A DNA stretch of 8,917 nucleotides, taken from Flavobacteriales bacterium UBA2426. GTDB lineage: Bacteria > Bacteroidota > Bacteroidia > Flavobacteriales_F > PHOS-HE28. The stretch spans positions 840-9,756 of the forward strand of contig DDRC01000244.1 of NCBI GenBank assembly GCA_002342985.1, given 5' to 3'. A program made the position numbers and the translations under genes. Under the pieces are notes generated by a model, which saw only the letters and a list, made by a program, of their open reading frames with translations, made no database searches and was not told the origin of the DNA. Shown in pieces: positions 588 through 8,917 of this stretch (position 1 is the stretch's first letter; each line of letters starts with the position of its first letter).

Positions 588-1580
588 ATGCGCCTGGCAC
601 TCCTTGCCTGCCTGCTCTCGGCCGCCGCCACGGCCTGGGCCCAGCCGCCCAACAGCGACTGCGCCACCGCCGCGCTCGTGTGCGCCCAGCAGCCCGTGGG
701 CGGCGACAACACCGGCGCCAACGGCACGCTGCCCGGGTTCTGCCCCGGCACCGACAACCTGCTGTGGTACACCTTCACCACCAACAGCGTGGGCGGCCCC
801 GTGCAGGTGGCGGTGGAGGGCATCGCCTGCCCCCTGGTGGGGGGCATGGACAACGAGCTGAGCCTGGTGGTGCTCGCCGGCAACGGCAGCTGCACCCCGG
901 CATCCTTCACCGCGGTGTCGGCCTGCGAGCTGGATTCCATGGCCTTCGCGGTCACCACCCAATCGCTGATGCCCGGCACCGTCTACTGGGTGGTGGTCTC
1001 CGGCGCCATCAACGACGGCGCCCTCATCGCCGCCCAATGCGGCTTCAGCCTCACCGTATCGGGCCCCGGCGTGGATGTGGTGGGCGTGGACTTCACCGCC
1101 GGGCCCGACGAGGAGATCCCGCAGGGCGGCGCCGTGCAGCTCGATGCGCAGGGCGGCACCACCTACGACTGGACACCGACCACCGGCCTCAGCGGCAACG
1201 GCATCCCAGACCCCATCGCCAATCCGCAGAGCTCCACCACCTACGCGGTGACCACCGTGGTCGGCGGCTGCACCTACACCGACTCGGTGAGCGTGAACGT
1301 GATCCGCCTCATCGAGCCGCCCAACACCTTCTCGCCCAATGGCGATGGCCGCAACGACGTGTGGGAGGTGCCCGGCATCCAGGACTACCCCGGCGCCGTG
1401 GTGATGATCTACGACCGCTGGGGGCAGCGCGTGTTCAACAGCAACGGCTACCGCGAGCCGTGGGACGGCACGCGCAACGGGAACCCGCTCTCCGAGGGCA
1501 CCTATTACTACCACATCCAGCTGAACCCGGTGGAGGGCCGCTCGGACCCCTACACGGGCTACATCTCCATCATCCGATGA
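588..1580 (+). CDS. Secreted protein with T9SS type B (CHU_C, gliding-motility-associated) C-terminal domain
   Basis: 330 residues. The start at 588 is chosen because it opens directly with a signal peptide (MRLALLACLLSAAATAWA, likely cut before Q19). An in-frame ATG at 492 would add an Arg/Cys-rich leader that buries the signal. Residues about 20-160 form a Cys-containing beta-rich domain (PPNSDC, NLLWYTFTT), as in other Bacteroidota surface proteins. Residues about 165-240 resemble a PKD/Ig-like module (TYDWTPTTGLS, STTYAVT). Residues about 245-330 are the CHU_C / type B sorting domain: TFSPNGDGRNDVW from 247, IYDRWGQRVF from 274, PWDG at 291 and EGTYYYHI from 303. By family knowledge this domain sends the protein through the type IX secretion system to the cell surface. 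There is no enzyme domain, so it is probably structural or adhesive. It overlaps the next gene by ATGA, suggesting translational coupling with its PorP/SprF partner. Confidence 0.93.
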   Translation: MRLALLACLLSAAATAWAQPPNSDCATAALVCAQQPVGGDNTGANGTLPGFCPGTDNLLWYTFTTNSVGGPVQVAVEGIACPLVGGMDNELSLVVLAGNGSCTPASFTAVSACELDSMAFAVTTQSLMPGTVYWVVVSGAINDGALIAAQCGFSLTVSGPGVDVVGVDFTAGPDEEIPQGGAVQLDAQGGTTYDWTPTTGLSGNGIPDPIANPQSSTTYAVTTVVGGCTYTDSVSVNVIRLIEPPNTFSPNGDGRNDVWEVPGIQDYPGAVVMIYDRWGQRVFNSNGYREPWDGTRNGNPLSEGTYYYHIQLNPVEGRSDPYTGYISIIR

Positions 1581-2518
1581 GGACCGCCGCGCTGCTGCTC
1601 CTGGCCCTGCTGGCCTCCGCGCCCGCCGGGGCGCAGCAGCTGGCGCAGTACACGCAGTACGTCTTCAACCACTTCAGCGTGAACCCCGCCGTGGCCGGCA
1701 GCAAGGACTGCCTCGACGTGCGCCTCGGCTACCGCCAGCAGTGGGTGGGCCTCGAGGGCGCCCCGCGCAACGGGTGGGCCAGCCTGCACGGCACGCTGGG
1801 CCGCAAGAAGGGCGGGCCCAACCGCAACCGCCATGGCATCGGGTTCTTCGCCGAGAGCGACAACGCGGGCAACTGGGGCTATACGCGCCTGGCGCTGGCC
1901 TATGCCTACCACATGCAGATGGCGCGCGACTACCACCTGAGCTTCGGCTTCTTCGGCGGTGCGCAGCAGATGAAGTACGATGTGGGCGCCAGCACCGTGG
2001 TGGACTACAACGACCCGGCGCTCGACAGCCGGGCCACGGCGCTGGTGGTGCCCGAGGTGACCCCCGGCATCTGGGCCTACAACAAGGTGGCCTGGGCGGG
2101 CCTTTCCATGCACCAGGCCCTGGGCAACCGCATCAGCGGCATCGGCACGGACTCGCGGCTGGCGCGGCAGTTCATGCTCAGCGGCGGCTACAAGTACCGC
2201 ATCGGGCGCAAGACCGCGCTCATCCCGAGCCTGCTGCTGAAGAAGAGCAAGGCCGCCCCTTGGGCGCTCGACATCAATGGCATGGTGGAGTGGAACCGCA
2301 AGTTCGCCCTAGGGGCGGGCTACCGGGCCGGCGATGCGGTATCGGTGCTGATGAAGGTGAGCTTCGCCAAGTACTTCCAGCTCGGCTACAGCTACGACAT
2401 CACCACATCGCGGCTCCGCGTGGGCAGCTCCAACACGCACGAGATCATCCTGGGCATCACCCCGTGCGGGCAGGAGGACATGAGCCGCCGCATGATCAAT
2501 TGCCCGGCGTTCGACTAG
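1577..2518 (+). CDS. PorP/SprF family type IX secretion outer-membrane protein
   Basis: 313 residues, the usual family length. The start ATG lies inside the ATGA overlap with the upstream gene. The signal peptide is MRTAALLLLALLASAPAGA, cut before Q20. The mature N-terminus carries the family signature QYTQYVFNHFSVNPAVAGS (residues 24-42), followed by YRQQWVGLEGAPRN and many short alternating aromatic strands typical of an outer-membrane beta-barrel (GYTRLALAYAYHM, GYKYRIG, FALGAGYRAGD). The end has the family-style strand NTHEIILGI and a short Cys-containing tail ending NCPAFD. In Flavobacterium johnsoniae, SprF is needed for secretion of the adhesin SprB, and PorP/SprF paralogues are often paired with type B cargo. 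Its position between a type B cargo gene and a giant SprB-repeat gene fits that role. Which neighbour it serves is inferred; it could serve both. The gene is intact with no oddities. Confidence 0.95.
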   Translation: MRTAALLLLALLASAPAGAQQLAQYTQYVFNHFSVNPAVAGSKDCLDVRLGYRQQWVGLEGAPRNGWASLHGTLGRKKGGPNRNRHGIGFFAESDNAGNWGYTRLALAYAYHMQMARDYHLSFGFFGGAQQMKYDVGASTVVDYNDPALDSRATALVVPEVTPGIWAYNKVAWAGLSMHQALGNRISGIGTDSRLARQFMLSGGYKYRIGRKTALIPSLLLKKSKAAPWALDINGMVEWNRKFALGAGYRAGDAVSVLMKVSFAKYFQLGYSYDITTSRLRVGSSNTHEIILGITPCGQEDMSRRMINCPAFD

Positions 2519-2536: not shown

Positions 2537-5500
2537 ATGCGCATCCACGCCCTCCTCCCGCTCACGATCGCCGCGCTGATCCTGCTGCCCGCCGCGCCGG
2601 CGCAGGCCCAAGCGGGCACCGGCCGCACCCTGCACTGGGTGGGCGGCAACGGCTCATGGAGCGATGCGGCGCACTGGAGCCTGATGGCCGGCGGCGCCGG
2701 CGGTGCCGGCGTGCCGGGCGCCACCGACGATGCGGTGATCGCGCCGGCCGCCGAGACCGTGGTGGCGGTGGAGGGCCGCGCGCGCTGCCGCAGCCTGCGG
2801 CTGGATGGCGCCGCCGCCTTCGTGCGCGTGGATGGCGGAGGACGCGATGCGCTGGAAGTGCATGGCGATTGGTCGATGAGCGGCAGCGTGCAATGGGCCT
2901 TCGGCGGAACGGTGCGGCTCACCGGGGCGGGGGAGGGCCGCGTGATCGACACCCGGGGCATCCCCCTCGCCGGCCAGCTGCGGTTCGATGGCGAAGGCTC
3001 CTGGTCGCTGCTGAGCGACCTCCACCTCACCGAGGGCGACCTCACCTGGCGCTCGGGCACCGTGCACGCCGCGGGCGGCCTGGTGCAGGCCCGCACCCTG
3101 TGCAGCGAGGGCCGCGCCACCCAGCGCCTGATGGCCGGCCGCAGCGTCATCCGCCTCGCGCGCGCACCGGAGGCCGGTGTGCTGGAGCGCGTGGTACAGG
3201 CCCAGGAGGCCACGCTGCTGGTGGGGGCGGAGCCGGTGCGCCTGCCGCAGGCGATCCCCCCGGGCGGTGAGGACCGCGACGTGGCCGTGTGCGCCACCGG
3301 TGCGGGGCAGACGCCCTTCATCGCCACCACCTCGGCGACGACCAACTTCAACGGATTCAACGTCAGCTGCCGCGGTGCCTGCGATGCCACCATCACGGTG
3401 AGCGTCACCGGGGGCGTGGGTCCCTTCACCTACTCCTGGCTCTTCGGCGGCCCGGCCACGCAGACCTGGACGGGGGCATGCGGCGGCCCGCAGATCGTGG
3501 TGGTCACCGACGTGGGCCAGGGGGTGAGCTGCGGCGTGCCCATCAACGTCACCGAGCCGGGCCCCTTGGGTGTGATCTTCTTCGGCGCCGGCACCCCGCC
3601 CGCCTGCGCCGACGTGTGCAACGGCTCGCGCACGGCCCTGGCCATCGGCGGCGTGGCACCGCACAGCTACAGCTGGAACAATGGCGCGGGCACCGGCTCG
3701 TCGTTCAACCAGCTCTGCGCGGGCACCAATACCCTGGTGATCACCGACGCCAACAATTGCAGCTTCGATACCACCTTCACCTTCAACCTGCTGCCGATCC
3801 AGCCGAACCTGAGCTTCACGGGCACCTCGTGCAACGGCCTCTGCGATGGCACGGCATCGGTGAATCCCGCAGGCGGCACGCCCCCCATCGCCGTCACCTG
3901 GACGCCCGCGCCCGGCGGGGGCCAGGGCACCAACACGGCCACGGGCCTCTGCGCCGGCAACTACAGCGTGCTGCTGGTGGATGCCAACGGCTGCGATACC
4001 ACGGTCGCCTTCACCATCGATCAGCCGCCGCCCATCGTGCCCAATCCCGCGCAGACCGATGCGAGCTGCTTCGGCGTGTGCGATGGCACCGCCACGGTGA
4101 ATCCGACGGATGGCGTGGGCCCCTATGCCTACGACTGGACGCCCGCGCCCGGAGCGGGCCAGGGCACCAACGCGGCGACAGGGCTCTGCGAAGGCGCGTA
4201 CAGCGTCCTCATCACCGATCAGGGCACGGGCTGCACCACCACGCAGGCCTTCACCATCGCGGCGCCGCCCGCCATCGATGTGCAGGGCACGGTCACGCCG
4301 GCCAGCTGCTCCGACGCCTGCGATGGCACCATCGGCATCACGGTGAACGGCGCGGTGCCGCCGTACACCATCACCTGGTCGCCGCCGGTGACGGGGCAGG
4401 GCACCCCGAACGCCACGGCGCTCTGCCCCGGAGTGTACAGCGTCACCGTGGCCACGCCGAACGGCTGCGACACCACGCTCACCTTCACGGTCACCGCGCC
4501 CGCGCCGATCCAAGCCGCCGTGCAAACCACCGATGCGAGCTGTGCGGGCGTGTGCGATGGCGCGGCCCAGGCCCCCGGCGTCACCGGCGGAACCGCGCCC
4601 TATGCCTTCCTGTGGACGCCTTCGCCGGGTGCGGGGCAGGGCACCGATACCGCCACGGACCTGTGCGCGGGTAGCTACACCCTGCTGATCACCGATGCGA
4701 ACGGCTGCGACACCCTCATCGCCTTCACGATCAATGAGCCGCCGCCCTTGGTAGTGGTGCCCGCCCAGACGGATGTGACCTGCGGCAGCCTGTGCGATGG
4801 CACCGCGAGCGTGGCGGTCTCCGGCGGCTCGCCGGGCTACACCTATGCCTGGACGCCCGCCGTCACCGGGCAGGGCACGCCGGATGCGACGGGCCTGTGC
4901 GCGGGCAGCTACAGCGTGCTGATCACCGATGCGAACGGCTGCACCATCACCCAGTCGTTCACCATCCTCGATGCCGTGCCGCTGGATGTGTCGCTGCAGG
5001 TGCTGCCGGCCAGCTGCCCCGATGCCTGTGATGGCGAAGCGGGCGTGATCGTAACGGGCGGGCAGGCGCCGTATGCCTTTGCCTGGTCGCCCGAGCCCGG
5101 CGCGGGCCAGGGCACGGCTGCGGTCACCGGCCTCTGCCCGCAGGCCTATTCCCTGGTCATCACCGATGCGGTGGGCTGCGATACCACCATTGCCTTCACG
5201 GTGCCGGCGCCGCCGCCGATCGTTGCGACCGGCACGGTGACGCCGCCCTCGTGCAGCGGTGCGTGCGATGGGAGCATCAGCCTGTCGGCGAGCGGAGGCG
5301 ACGGTACCTTCACCTACCTCTGGTCGCCTGGGGTGACCGGTCAGGGCACGCCGAATGCCACGCTGCTCTGCGCGGGCAGCTACCAGGTCACCGTTTCCAG
5401 CGGCGGCTGCGACACCACGATCACTTTCGAGCTCACCGCTCCGCCGCCGATCGATGCCGCGCTGACCACGACTGACCCCGCATGCGCCGGTGCATGCGAC

Positions 5501-8500
5501 GGCGCGGCCAGCGTGACGGTGGCCGGTGGCACGCCGCCTTATGCCTTCCTGTGGACGCCCGCGGTCAGTGGCCAGGGTACGCCGGATGCAGCGGACCTCT
5601 GTCCCGGCAACTACACGGTGCTGGTCTCGGATGCGGCAGGCTGCGACACGCTCATCGCCTTCACCATCACGGAGCCGCCGCCCATCGTGGTGGACCTGAC
5701 GACAACGCCGGCCAGCTGCGGCGGACTCTGCGACGGCACGGCCACAGCAACCGTGACGGGCGGCGCTGCGCCGTACCAGTACGATTGGCAGCCGGTGCCC
5801 GGGAGCGGCCAGGGCACGCCGGATGCGACGGGCCTCTGCCCCGGCGCCTATGCGCTCACGGTGACGGATGCGAACGGATGCGTCTTGGCCACGCCCTTCA
5901 CCATCAGCACACCATCGGGGATCGACGCCCAGGGCACGGTGACGGATGCCAGCTGCGGCAACAGCTGCGATGGCGCCATCGCCGTGACGACGGCGGGCGG
6001 GCTTCCGCCCTACACCTACACCTGGTCGCCGGAGCCGGGCACCGGCCAGGGCACGCCCAACGCGGGCGGGCTGTGCGCCGGGGTCTGGACGCTGCAGATC
6101 ACCGATGCGGCGCAATGCGACACGGTGCTGCTGTTCACGGTGGATGAGCCGGACCCCATCCTGCCCAACGGGGTGAGCACCGATGAGACCTGCAATGGCC
6201 CCTGCGATGGCACCGTGACGGTGAGCCCCACGGGCGGCGTGGCCCCCTACACCTTCACGTGGGACCCCCCACCGCCGGTGGGCGATGGCACCAATGCAGG
6301 CAGCGGCCTGTGCCCGGGGACCTGGAGCGTCACCATCACCGATGCCAGCGGCTGCGACACCACCGCGGTGTTCGAGGTGCTGCCCAAGGTGCCGGTGACG
6401 AACAACCTCGTCTGGACCGATGCCACCTGCCCCAACACGTGCAGCGGAACGGCATCGGTGACGCCGGCAGGCGGCATCCCCCCGTACACCATCGTGTGGG
6501 TCCCGGAGCCGCCCACAGGCCAGGGCACCACGGCCGTGAGCGGCCTCTGCATCGGGCTCTGGGAGGTGCAGGTGTTCGATGCCGTGGGCTGCGTGGGCGC
6601 CACGCCATTCTTCATCGGCGCACCGCCGCCATTCGATGCGGGCCTTGCGGTGAGCCCGGAGGATTGCACGGCACCCTGCACCGGATCGGCCACCGTGACC
6701 CCCACGGGCGGAACGGGCGCCATCACCATCCTCTGGTCGCCTGAGCCCGGCGGCGGGCAAGGAACGACCACGGCCACCGGGCTCTGCGCCGGCACGCCGT
6801 ACACGGTCACCCTCACCGATGCCAGCGGCTGCGACAGCACCTTCACCTTCACGGTGGATCCCTTCACGCCCATCGCCCCCAACAGCAGCAGCACGCCGGT
6901 GAGCTGCGCGGGCTTCTGCGATGGCACGGCCACCGTGGGTCCCACGGGCGGAGCCGGCCCCTACTCCTTCCTCTGGTCGCCGGGGGGCCAGGATACGCCC
7001 CAGGTGAGCGGCCTCTGCGAAGGGGTGTACACCGTGACGATCACCGACGCCAATGGCTGCAGCATCGATGCGCAGGTGCTCATCACCGGTCCGGCGCCCA
7101 TCGCGGGCAATGCGGCCGTCTCGGACATCTCGTGCAACGGTGAGTGCGACGGGGCCATTGCGCTCAACGTGACGGGCGGCGTAGCGCCCTACACCTATGC
7201 ATGGACCCCCACGCCACCGAACGGCCCGGGGCAAGCGTCAGCCACGGGGCTCTGCGCCGGCACCTGGGAGGCGGTGGTGACGGATGCGACCGGGTGCAGC
7301 ACCACGCTCGCGTTCACCCTCACGGAGCCTGATGCGCTCGCGCTCAGCGTAGCCGTTACGCCGAGCGAATGCCAGGTCTGCATCGGCACCGCCGCCGCCA
7401 CCGTCTCCGGCGGCACGGCGCCCCTCACCGTGGAATGGTACAGCGCGGCCGGCTCGCTCATCGGCGCCGGCCTCAGCGTGAGCGACCTCTGCGCCGGCGT
7501 GTACACGGCGGTGCTGACGGATGCCAGCGGATGCTCGGTCCAGCAGGCCGTGGCCGTCACCGATGCCGCAGGCGAGGACATCACCGCCGTGGATGGTGCC
7601 ACCAGCTGCCCCAATGCCTGTGACGGCAGCGTGAGCGTGGACCTTGTCTGCGCCGATGCACCGTGCGTCATCGCCTGGTTCGATGGGCAGGGCAACGACC
7701 TGAATGCGAACGGCACCGCGCTCTCCGGGCTTTGCCCCGGCGATTACCTGGTGCAGGTGACCAATGCGTCCGGCTGCGTGAGCATTGACACCGCCACGGT
7801 GGCGGCGCCCTCCCCAACGGACCTGCTGGTGAGCAGCGAACCGGTCTCCTGCGCCGGCGCATGCGATGGCACTGCCACGGTGGGCGTGAGCGGCGGCACG
7901 CCGCCCTATACCTTCACATGGTCGCCTGAGCCGGGCGGCGGACAGGGCACGCCGCAAGCCACGCAGCTCTGCCCCGGCGTCTACACCGTGCTCATCAGCG
8001 ATGGCGGCGGATGCGACACCACGGCGCAGGTGCTGATCACGGAGCCCGCGCTGCTTGCAGTAGGGTCGGTGGTGATCGGCGCCTCCTGCGCAGGCCAATG
8101 CGATGGCAGCATCACCCTGAACATCACCGGCGGCACCGCACCCTACGGCATCGCGTGGTCTCCGCAGCCGCCGGGCGGCCAGGGCGGATTGCCTGCGGCG
8201 TTCGGGCTCTGCCCGGGCGATTGGACGGTGGTCATCACCGATGCCAACGGATGCTCCTACACCGAGACCTATGCCATCACGGAGCCGCAACCGCTGCAGG
8301 TGGCCGTGAGCACCGTGCCGAGCACCTGCCCCAACTGCGACGGACAGGCGACGGCCGCCATCACCGGCGGTACGCCGCCCTACACCGCCGAATGGTCGCT
8401 GGGTGGCACGGTGGTGGCCACGGGCGAGAGTGCGACGGGCCTGTGTGGCGGCCTCTACACGCTGGCGGTCTCCGACATCAACGGTTGCAGCAGCACGCAG

Positions 8501-8917
8501 CTGGTGCAGGTGAGCGACGGCAATGCCGACCCGCTCACGCCGGTGAACGGGCAGACCACCTGCGGGAACACGTGCGATGGCGAGGTGAGCGTGTCCTTCA
8601 CCTGCAGCGCACCGCCGTGCAACCTGGTGTGGTACGATGCCACGGGCAACGTGCTCGCCACGAATCAGGGCGCGCTCACGGGCCTCTGCGTCGGCGCTTA
8701 CACGGCTGAGCTGACCAATGGCAATGGATGTGTCAGCTTCGCCACGGCCGAGGTCACGCCCTCGCAGGCCATCATTCCCAACCTGAGCAGTTCGCCAGTG
8801 ACCTGCGCCGGGGCGTGCGACGGCACGGCCACCGTTGGCCCCACGGGAGGCGTGGCCCCCTATACCTTCCTCTGGAGCCCCGGCGGTGAGGACACCCCGC
8901 AGCTGACGGGCCTGTGC
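2537..8917 (+). CDS. Giant SprB-repeat surface protein, 3' end beyond the window
   Basis: The frame is open for 2127 codons from the ATG at 2537 to the right edge; the reading phase checks at every repeat, so there is no frameshift. Residues 1-24 are a signal peptide (MRIHALLPLTIAALILLPAAPAQA). Residues about 30-265 form a non-repeat module starting WVGGNGSWSDAAHWS, with short hydrophobic strands resembling a beta-helix. From about residue 270 come roughly 24 SprB-type repeats of about 79 residues, each on the plan C-x3-CDGTA, GG-PPY, W, GQGTP, GLC-G-Y, TDANGC. The visible part matches known giant gliding adhesins such as F. johnsoniae SprB (about 6500 residues), which are T9SS-secreted and move along the cell surface. 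A C-terminal sorting domain would be expected beyond the window. It lies 18 bases after the PorP/SprF gene with no terminator between. A non-motile adhesin or surface-layer role is equally possible. Confidence 0.93.
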   Translation, partial: MRIHALLPLTIAALILLPAAPAQAQAGTGRTLHWVGGNGSWSDAAHWSLMAGGAGGAGVPGATDDAVIAPAAETVVAVEGRARCRSLRLDGAAAFVRVDGGGRDALEVHGDWSMSGSVQWAFGGTVRLTGAGEGRVIDTRGIPLAGQLRFDGEGSWSLLSDLHLTEGDLTWRSGTVHAAGGLVQARTLCSEGRATQRLMAGRSVIRLARAPEAGVLERVVQAQEATLLVGAEPVRLPQAIPPGGEDRDVAVCATGAGQTPFIATTSATTNFNGFNVSCRGACDATITVSVTGGVGPFTYSWLFGGPATQTWTGACGGPQIVVVTDVGQGVSCGVPINVTEPGPLGVIFFGAGTPPACADVCNGSRTALAIGGVAPHSYSWNNGAGTGSSFNQLCAGTNTLVITDANNCSFDTTFTFNLLPIQPNLSFTGTSCNGLCDGTASVNPAGGTPPIAVTWTPAPGGGQGTNTATGLCAGNYSVLLVDANGCDTTVAFTIDQPPPIVPNPAQTDASCFGVCDGTATVNPTDGVGPYAYDWTPAPGAGQGTNAATGLCEGAYSVLITDQGTGCTTTQAFTIAAPPAIDVQGTVTPASCSDACDGTIGITVNGAVPPYTITWSPPVTGQGTPNATALCPGVYSVTVATPNGCDTTLTFTVTAPAPIQAAVQTTDASCAGVCDGAAQAPGVTGGTAPYAFLWTPSPGAGQGTDTATDLCAGSYTLLITDANGCDTLIAFTINEPPPLVVVPAQTDVTCGSLCDGTASVAVSGGSPGYTYAWTPAVTGQGTPDATGLCAGSYSVLITDANGCTITQSFTILDAVPLDVSLQVLPASCPDACDGEAGVIVTGGQAPYAFAWSPEPGAGQGTAAVTGLCPQAYSLVITDAVGCDTTIAFTVPAPPPIVATGTVTPPSCSGACDGSISLSASGGDGTFTYLWSPGVTGQGTPNATLLCAGSYQVTVSSGGCDTTITFELTAPPPIDAALTTTDPACAGACDGAASVTVAGGTPPYAFLWTPAVSGQGTPDAADLCPGNYTVLVSDAAGCDTLIAFTITEPPPIVVDLTTTPASCGGLCDGTATATVTGGAAPYQYDWQPVPGSGQGTPDATGLCPGAYALTVTDANGCVLATPFTISTPSGIDAQGTVTDASCGNSCDGAIAVTTAGGLPPYTYTWSPEPGTGQGTPNAGGLCAGVWTLQITDAAQCDTVLLFTVDEPDPILPNGVSTDETCNGPCDGTVTVSPTGGVAPYTFTWDPPPPVGDGTNAGSGLCPGTWSVTITDASGCDTTAVFEVLPKVPVTNNLVWTDATCPNTCSGTASVTPAGGIPPYTIVWVPEPPTGQGTTAVSGLCIGLWEVQVFDAVGCVGATPFFIGAPPPFDAGLAVSPEDCTAPCTGSATVTPTGGTGAITILWSPEPGGGQGTTTATGLCAGTPYTVTLTDASGCDSTFTFTVDPFTPIAPNSSSTPVSCAGFCDGTATVGPTGGAGPYSFLWSPGGQDTPQVSGLCEGVYTVTITDANGCSIDAQVLITGPAPIAGNAAVSDISCNGECDGAIALNVTGGVAPYTYAWTPTPPNGPGQASATGLCAGTWEAVVTDATGCSTTLAFTLTEPDALALSVAVTPSECQVCIGTAAATVSGGTAPLTVEWYSAAGSLIGAGLSVSDLCAGVYTAVLTDASGCSVQQAVAVTDAAGEDITAVDGATSCPNACDGSVSVDLVCADAPCVIAWFDGQGNDLNANGTALSGLCPGDYLVQVTNASGCVSIDTATVAAPSPTDLLVSSEPVSCAGACDGTATVGVSGGTPPYTFTWSPEPGGGQGTPQATQLCPGVYTVLISDGGGCDTTAQVLITEPALLAVGSVVIGASCAGQCDGSITLNITGGTAPYGIAWSPQPPGGQGGLPAAFGLCPGDWTVVITDANGCSYTETYAITEPQPLQVAVSTVPSTCPNCDGQATAAITGGTPPYTAEWSLGGTVVATGESATGLCGGLYTLAVSDINGCSSTQLVQVSDGNADPLTPVNGQTTCGNTCDGEVSVSFTCSAPPCNLVWYDATGNVLATNQGALTGLCVGAYTAELTNGNGCVSFATAEVTPSQAIIPNLSSSPVTCAGACDGTATVGPTGGVAPYTFLWSPGGEDTPQLTGLC
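4280..6170 (+). repeat. First visible pair of four-unit super-repeats (units 5-8 and 9-12)
   Basis: Unit 5 resembles unit 9 (GTVTP-SC, VTGQGTPNAT-LC, CDTT-TF). Unit 6 resembles unit 10 (CAG-CDGAA, AFLWTP, DLC, CDTLIAFTI-EPPP), and these two share an identical 20-base stretch at 4601-4620 and 5540-5559. Unit 7 resembles unit 11 (CG-LCDGTA, GQGTPDATGLC, NGC not followed by D). Unit 8 resembles unit 12 (WSPEPG-GQGT). Offsets are 936-945 bases. Boundaries are approximate. Confidence 0.6.
6880..8917 (+). repeat. Second pair of four-unit super-repeats (units 16-20 and 20-24)
   Basis: Units 16, 20 and 24 share SPV-CAG-CDGTATVG (P/T variants). Units 17 and 21 share a double-Pro loop, a G-W step and an EP-AL/EPQPL end. 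Units 18 and 22 share the shortened C-x2-C motif. Units 19 and 23 share an extra C-x4-C. Offsets are 945-957 bases. Unit 13 also fits the unit 17 type (SD/TD-CNG-CDG, GGVAPYT, PP, GTW), extending the phase backwards. Confidence 0.65.

Follow-up and report, generated by a model that had tools for sequence, protein, structure and literature searches.

The giant SprB-repeat gene that begins in the window (the whole stretch of 8,917 nucleotides analysed here, positions 840–9756 of contig C60) encodes a long array of domain units, of which U15–U28 form an A-B-C-D super-repeat of four distinct domain types. The most probable explanation, to which we would give roughly four chances in five, is tandem duplication of a four-unit block before the genus diversified, followed by selection that held the register, in a predicted type IX-secreted fibre. 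In this reading, tandem duplication of a four-unit (~950 bp) block carrying the C-D dyad, ahead of the spread of the genus, would have left three complete copies and part of a fourth (U15–U28); the register would then have been frozen, with each slot under purifying selection and slight conversion between units of the same type.

By domain content the giant protein is an SprB-repeat protein: the part encoded in the window scores 488.7 bits against the PF13573 profile over 18 stretches, above the curated cut-off of 28. The contig stops at its position 9756, which is window position 8917, inside the gene (Table 1). Cutting at the first cysteine, from window position 3368, gives units U00–U23, with first cysteines every 75–81 residues and the last unit clipped by the contig end. 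The count of 24 units given by an earlier, sequence-only reading of the window thus stands; unit n of that reading is U(n−1) here. The units of the window have a mean identity of 0.39 to one another, and a nucleotide tandem-repeat search of the window returned zero rows, as expected for units so diverged. For the small CHU_C protein encoded further upstream, the start was taken as the first ATG within frame 492–1580.

Table 1. Features of the window, with coordinates counted from its first nucleotide
Feature	Coordinates	Strand	Basis or remark
Small CHU_C-domain protein (type IX secretion signal)	588..1580	+	PF13585, 94 bits
PorP/SprF-family gene, immediately upstream of giant gene	1577..2518	+	PF11751, 220 bits
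Giant SprB-repeat gene, 5' part, 2127 codons	2537..8917	+	Open frame; truncated by contig end
N-terminal region ahead of array, 277 aa	2537..3367	+	Query for orthologue search
Units U00–U03, array front	3368..4306	+	Unit cutting
Front lag-4 patch, U04–U07	4307..5251	+	Lag-4 pairing
Front lag-4 patch, U08–U11	5252..6190	+	Lag-4 pairing
Units U12–U14, without clear lag-4 partner in source species	6191..6904	+	Lag comparison
U15, type A (tetrad 1)	6905..7132	+	Slot matches, unit tree, identities
U16, type B (PPNG loop, LCAGTW)	7133..7369	+	Slot matches, unit tree, motifs
U17, type C (CxxC start, D-x-x-G-E tail)	7370..7606	+	Unit tree, motifs
U18, type D (six cysteines)	7607..7849	+	Unit tree, motifs
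U19, type A (tetrad 2)	7850..8086	+	Slot matches, unit tree, identities
U20, type B	8087..8326	+	Slot matches, unit tree
U21, type C (CxxC start)	8327..8560	+	Unit tree, motifs
U22, type D (six cysteines)	8561..8803	+	Unit tree, motifs
U23, type A (opens tetrad 3), contig end after 38 residues	8804..8917	+	Full same-species gene

In the window array, units four places apart (lag 4) have a mean identity of 0.461, as opposed to 0.406, 0.414 and 0.413 at lags 1–3 (z 5.3), a value reached by none of 5000 shuffles of the unit order. The peak at lag 4 that the sequence-only reading had predicted is therefore present, and its offsets of 936–957 bases hold for all ten pairs that it named. Seven of these pairs (5/9, 6/10, 16/20, 17/21, 20/24, 18/22 and 19/23 in its numbering) beat all four of their direct neighbours, but 7/11, 8/12 and 13/17 do not. 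Of the marks that it ascribed to units 6 and 10, CDTLIAFTI is confined to them in the window but DLC also occurs in unit 18. Lag 8, at which a second peak was predicted, is not raised in the unit identities of the window alone (0.386). The lag-4 signal falls in two patches, about U03–U10 and U15–U23, and across the seven pairs U08/U12 through U14/U18 there is no clear excess, so that one continuous period over the window is rejected. Within the front patch of the source species, U04 and U08 are each other's best partners, as are U05 and U09; the pairs U06/U10 and U07/U11 are weak.

The remainder of the gene could be recovered. Contig C224 of the same assembly begins in the middle of an array of the same repeat kind and contributes seven more units (PF13573, 144.7 bits), followed by a PKD-like domain, a CHU_C type IX secretion domain (80.4 bits against a cut-off of 27) and then a PorP/SprF gene. 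By its C-terminal CHU_C domain, the giant protein belongs among the predicted substrates of type IX secretion. The assembly gap that separates C60 from C224 was forecast to span ~201 residues from the unit phase and 209 from frame lengths; both forecasts were written after the frame lengths of the relatives were known and before their sequences were read. Of 31 orthologues, 30 have a corresponding stretch of 195 or 196 residues; in the other (L042) it measures 191. The closed genome G147, from the same species, carries the whole gene (3114 residues), with a gap of exactly 195 residues and a tail identical to that on C224. The gap holds one B-type unit (PPAGQG, GTW) and one C-type unit (CxxC start), matching the phase. 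Unit phase is thus a practical tool, which called the contents of an assembly gap and about its size. The full array comprises 33 units, of which the window carries 23 and a half.

Over these 33 units no other lag reaches the value of lag 4 (0.457 against 0.379–0.385 at lags 1–3; z 7.2; 0 of 20000 shuffles). Lag 8, flat in the window, rises to 0.407 in the complete array (z 2.4; value reached by 239 of 20000 shuffles). For U15–U28, bounds that were picked after the data were seen, lags 4 and 8 stand at 0.513 and 0.533, as against 0.29–0.35 at the other tested lags, and none of 20000 shuffles reaches the lag-8 value. Mean identity in this stretch is 0.522 between units of the same type (18 pairs) and 0.317 between units of different types (73 pairs), with some overlap between the two distributions (lowest same-type pair 0.39, highest different-type pair 0.51).

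The four types are distinguished by several marks. All 86 C units open with CxxC instead of CxxxC, and 84 of the 86 have a tail like D-x-x-G-E; all 87 D units possess an extra cysteine pair, for a total of six cysteines. In the AlphaFold2 model of U15–U22 this extra pair links the positions of two adjacent strands (residues 249/254 and 567/572), and we infer from the model that it probably forms a disulfide. In a maximum-likelihood tree of 124 units (U14–U29 from 8 of 29 arrays), which had few alignment columns, types A, B, C and D each occupy one side of a branch, with support values of 52, 98, 94 and 99, respectively; the A clade is therefore weakly supported. The type labels change five times on this tree, the minimum possible, whereas shuffled labels average 74.5 changes. 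Slots are partly mixed within each type, and the tree gives neither the order nor the number of the duplications.

The same organization is seen across the genus. The lag and slot counts cover 29 arrays, 8 of which supplied the tree; three loci with a changed unit number (L050, L059 and L065) are excluded throughout; two of the 29 (L041 and L055) share one genome bin, G018. Over the whole array lag 4 ranks first among lags 1–8 in 29 of 29 cases, and lag 8 has a z above 2 in 26. Within U14–U29, lags 4 and 8 both exceed this value in all 29 arrays. In the front half (U02–U14), by contrast, the lag-4 z is above 2 in 12 of the 29, the source species included (2.3); it is about 5 in several arrays, and other lags peak in 16. 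Given this weak front half and strict rear half, the period is not one continuous feature. The sequence-only reading had proposed a test for four unit clades, ordered along the array, here and in relatives; the lag counts and the unit tree show such clades. Its ordered tetrads along the entire array survive in strict form for U15–U28, of which the window shows U15–U23, and the front has only a weaker, lineage-specific lag-4 patch. That the pattern arose by chance, or from selective picking of examples, would fit the three named pairs that do not beat their neighbours and the flat lag 8 of the window; given the outcome of both sets of shuffles and the rank of lag 4 in every one of the 29 arrays, we regard this as negligible.

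The bin G018 holds the giant gene twice, in diverged copies of 33 units each; as the bin has 5% contamination, these may stem from two organisms.

Synonymous sites bear on the age of the blocks. At fourfold third positions, the source species has an identity of 0.502 at lag 4 compared to 0.527–0.530 at lags 1–3; with no lag-4 excess at these sites, a recent duplication in the source species is rejected. Over the 29 arrays, fourfold identity is 0.38–0.42 at all lags, and it is 0.387 between species for one slot; within U14–U29 lags 4 and 8 are slightly raised (0.407 and 0.417, against 0.380–0.396). The best cross-species match lies in the same slot for 858 of 950 units, and 51 of the 92 off-slot best matches sit exactly four units away. 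Because identity at synonymous sites stays at background level or close to it and 858 units match their own slot, we take the blocks to be old, with their likeness kept mainly at the protein level. Within U15–U28, units of one type in the same species (identity 0.506) are almost as alike as units of one slot in different species (0.536), so late duplication or conversion could give the same pattern.

An explanation in which ongoing gene conversion, or repeated re-duplication within species, mostly upholds the lag-4 likeness can indeed point to several observations. Identity within species exceeds that between species by 0.021 for same-type pairs and 0.004 for different-type pairs in U15–U28 (these pairs are non-independent), and fourfold identity in the rear half is slightly raised at lags 4 and 8, as described above. 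One clear case is L063, where U23 and U27 share 0.863 nucleotide identity and 0.85 at fourfold sites; two-unit copies in the front half of L065 are likewise nearly identical (see below). However, same-type likeness between species (0.485) nearly equals that within species, most units find their best match in their own slot, and the source species lacks a lag-4 excess at fourfold sites; moreover, conversion presupposes that the types already exist. We consider it unlikely that conversion accounts for most of the likeness. Weak conversion between same-type units, on top of selection, probably does take place, and purifying selection appears to act on each slot and on total length. The sequence-only reading had suggested growth by blocks of about 950 bp or selection for a four-domain repeat; what is favoured is duplication first and selection afterwards, with tetrads that are old rather than products of recent growth.

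The number of units is nearly constant in the genus. Among 31 complete arrays, 28 have 33 units (27 fetched orthologues and the gene of G147); the exceptions are L059 (+4), L050 (−4) and L065 (+1). The array of L040 is colinear as far as its contig reaches. Frame length is 3118–3156 in 27 of 30 complete genus frames, at a median pairwise protein identity of 0.53 between orthologues. The genus list contains 43 orthologous loci, of which 11 have short frames (404–2133 aa), namely the window's own and ten that were not used; in 3 of the 45 genus genomes (G027, G029 and G037) the N-terminal region query found only weak unit hits. Within a species, the length comparison covers two genomes. In L059, the four extra units match the four before them, each in turn, at 0.72–0.78 nucleotide identity. 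In the front half of L065 (genome G004), four successive lag-2 pairs of two-unit copies share 0.87–0.96 nucleotide identity, and this is a recent two-unit expansion. L050 is on a draft contig, so its four-unit loss may be an assembly error. All three changes fall in the front half of the array; no four-unit change was found in the rear half. Judging by analogy from the two relatives whose front halves gained or lost four units, block duplication is the probable origin of the rear tetrads.

A second giant array in the source assembly (contig C251; L009, 1–7152), for which the unit model gives 23 units, is without signal at lag 4 (z −0.7). In the well assembled genomes G147, G041, G024 and G004 the frames of the C251 array measure 2473, 2415, 2916 and 3131 aa, and those of the window gene 3120, 3144, 3127 and 3226 aa. 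Orthologues of the C251 array vary widely in length, the longest in the genus having 4279 residues and some of the shorter ones perhaps being clipped by contig ends; despite the varying frame length, its N-terminal query finds relatives at 63–71% identity. One giant array thus keeps its unit count and four-type super-repeat across the genus while the other varies widely, and with fixed and varying arrays in the same genomes, selection on repeat number and the purpose of a super-repeat become testable in a bacterium.

Arrays of other lineages and genes mostly have a different period, or none. We compared lags in 15 distinct arrays of at least 12 units from outside the genus set of this gene, with z values left uncorrected for multiple testing. 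Lag 4 ranks first in one of them (L073, z 2.9). Lag 3 does so in L120 (z 5.7; lag 6 z 3.7), a related giant array on the same contig as L071; lag 2 in L072 (z 4.3; lag 4 z 2.4); lag 7 in L119 and L147 (z 3.6 and 2.9); and lag 1 in L106, L118, L075 and L116 (z 3.8, 4.4, 4.7 and 2.5). In the remaining six, no lag has a z above 2. These differing periods weaken a general geometric rule for SprB-type rods. L106, which comes from a sister lineage (a more distant relative) and has the same gene neighbours, contains 41 units; it holds the C-D pair twice, seven units apart, as well as two CxxC units without D. From this seven-unit spacing the C-D dyad looks older than the tetrad.

These comparisons bear on a further alternative, namely that a structural need of SprB-type rods, such as a four-domain twist, caused units of the same phase to converge without any block duplication. 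The type marks kept over long divergence and the near-fixed array length do indicate that selection acts on the layout. Nevertheless, the periods of the outside arrays and the seven-unit spacing of the C-D pairs in L106 speak against such convergence, and whole-unit clades with several independent marks, together with actual four-unit gain and loss, fit duplication better. Convergence appears quite improbable to us, more so than upkeep by conversion.

L083 groups with the uncultured lineage of the source species by its giant gene; the Chryseobacterium gleum titles of L083, L106 and L115 look mislabelled.

The giant gene is flanked by PorP/SprF relatives, upstream in 28 of 28 loci and downstream in 26 of 28; in the other two loci the available sequence ends first. 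The upstream protein is likely a carrier or anchor of the giant protein. The C-terminal tail of gliding SprF carries Cys-Xaa-Cys, as given in PMC12635249. This motif was found in the tails of none of 27 upstream and none of 25 downstream relatives (one of the latter clipped by the locus end), nor in either of the two that flank the window gene. The upstream relatives (27 of 27, loci L078–L109) have a conserved C-terminal tail in which two cysteines are further apart (PC...CP near the end), which may be another way of linkage to the periplasm; no such pair occurs among the last residues of the downstream ones. In four well assembled genomes of the genus, GldJ is above cut-off in three, and a GldB relative is present but below cut-off in all four. 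Because Cys-Xaa-Cys is missing from the tails of its PorP/SprF neighbours, we do not class the giant protein as a gliding adhesin. It resembles SprB of F. johnsoniae (6497 aa according to PMC9870892) in its repeat family (PF13573), its giant size, a type IX secretion domain terminating the array and adjoining PorP/SprF genes. It differs from SprB in its four-type super-repeat, its near-fixed unit count and the absence of Cys-Xaa-Cys from its PorP/SprF neighbours. Among the matches listed for open-licence papers in PMC, no paper describes a higher-order period in SprB arrays, which does not imply absence from print.

The giant protein is predicted from its sequence to be a type IX-secreted surface fibre. 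The AlphaFold2 model of U15–U22 is a string of beta-sandwich domains with a mean pLDDT of 88.2 and a low pTM of 0.46; each unit is accordingly modelled, and here predicted, to be an immunoglobulin-like beta-sandwich, and the array to be a rod along which four faces would recur in constant order. In a Foldseek comparison of this model, the three top-ranking matches are to the grappling hook protein GhpA of Aureispira (PDB 9flp and others; E down to 1.9e-20, 17–20% identity). In a second structure comparison, many strings of Ig domains, titin and GhpA included, score alike. At the sequence level, the window protein has zero matches to solved structures, and an alignment of U15–U22 gave three weak ones, all titled phage-type decoration or neck proteins.

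Super-repeats of titin, repeats of repeats built from Ig-like domains in the accounts of PMC10665226 and PMC7427331, offer a parallel in mode of building, not in descent. In the A-band super-repeats, domains in the same place of successive blocks are most alike, and recursive block duplication is favoured by PMC10665226; here, too, domains in the same place are more alike than block neighbours (0.522 against 0.317 in U15–U28). Blocks in titin are longer than the four domains seen here, and the giant protein is not known to have a partner filament to which a titin-type block period would be matched. A tentative and rather doubtful extension would make the giant protein a counterpart of the titin super-repeats: a fixed 33-domain secreted rod in which the C-D-marked four-domain cycle sets regularly spaced binding or assembly sites along the fibre, with length and register selected as in a molecular ruler.

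Periscope Proteins are another likeness, as rods on the bacterial surface in which a single chain forms a series of tandem folded domains, with rod and surface being predictions for the giant protein. According to PMC9704523, their repeats are highly identical and vary in number within populations, and this class of tandem-repeat surface proteins is known for quick length change. Mean unit identity of 0.39 and a near-fixed count over the genus place the giant protein outside that definition. In contrast to that class, an array with 33 domains in 28 of 31 cases provides a bacterial case for testing why the length of a repeat protein stays fixed.

Downstream of the PorP/SprF gene on contig C224 lies a giant repetitive frame of 3041 codons (L007, 2884–12009), which has N runs and a different kind of repeat. 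On the minus strand of the window, a 1526-codon open frame (2654–7234) mirrors the giant gene and is most likely a by-product of codon composition.
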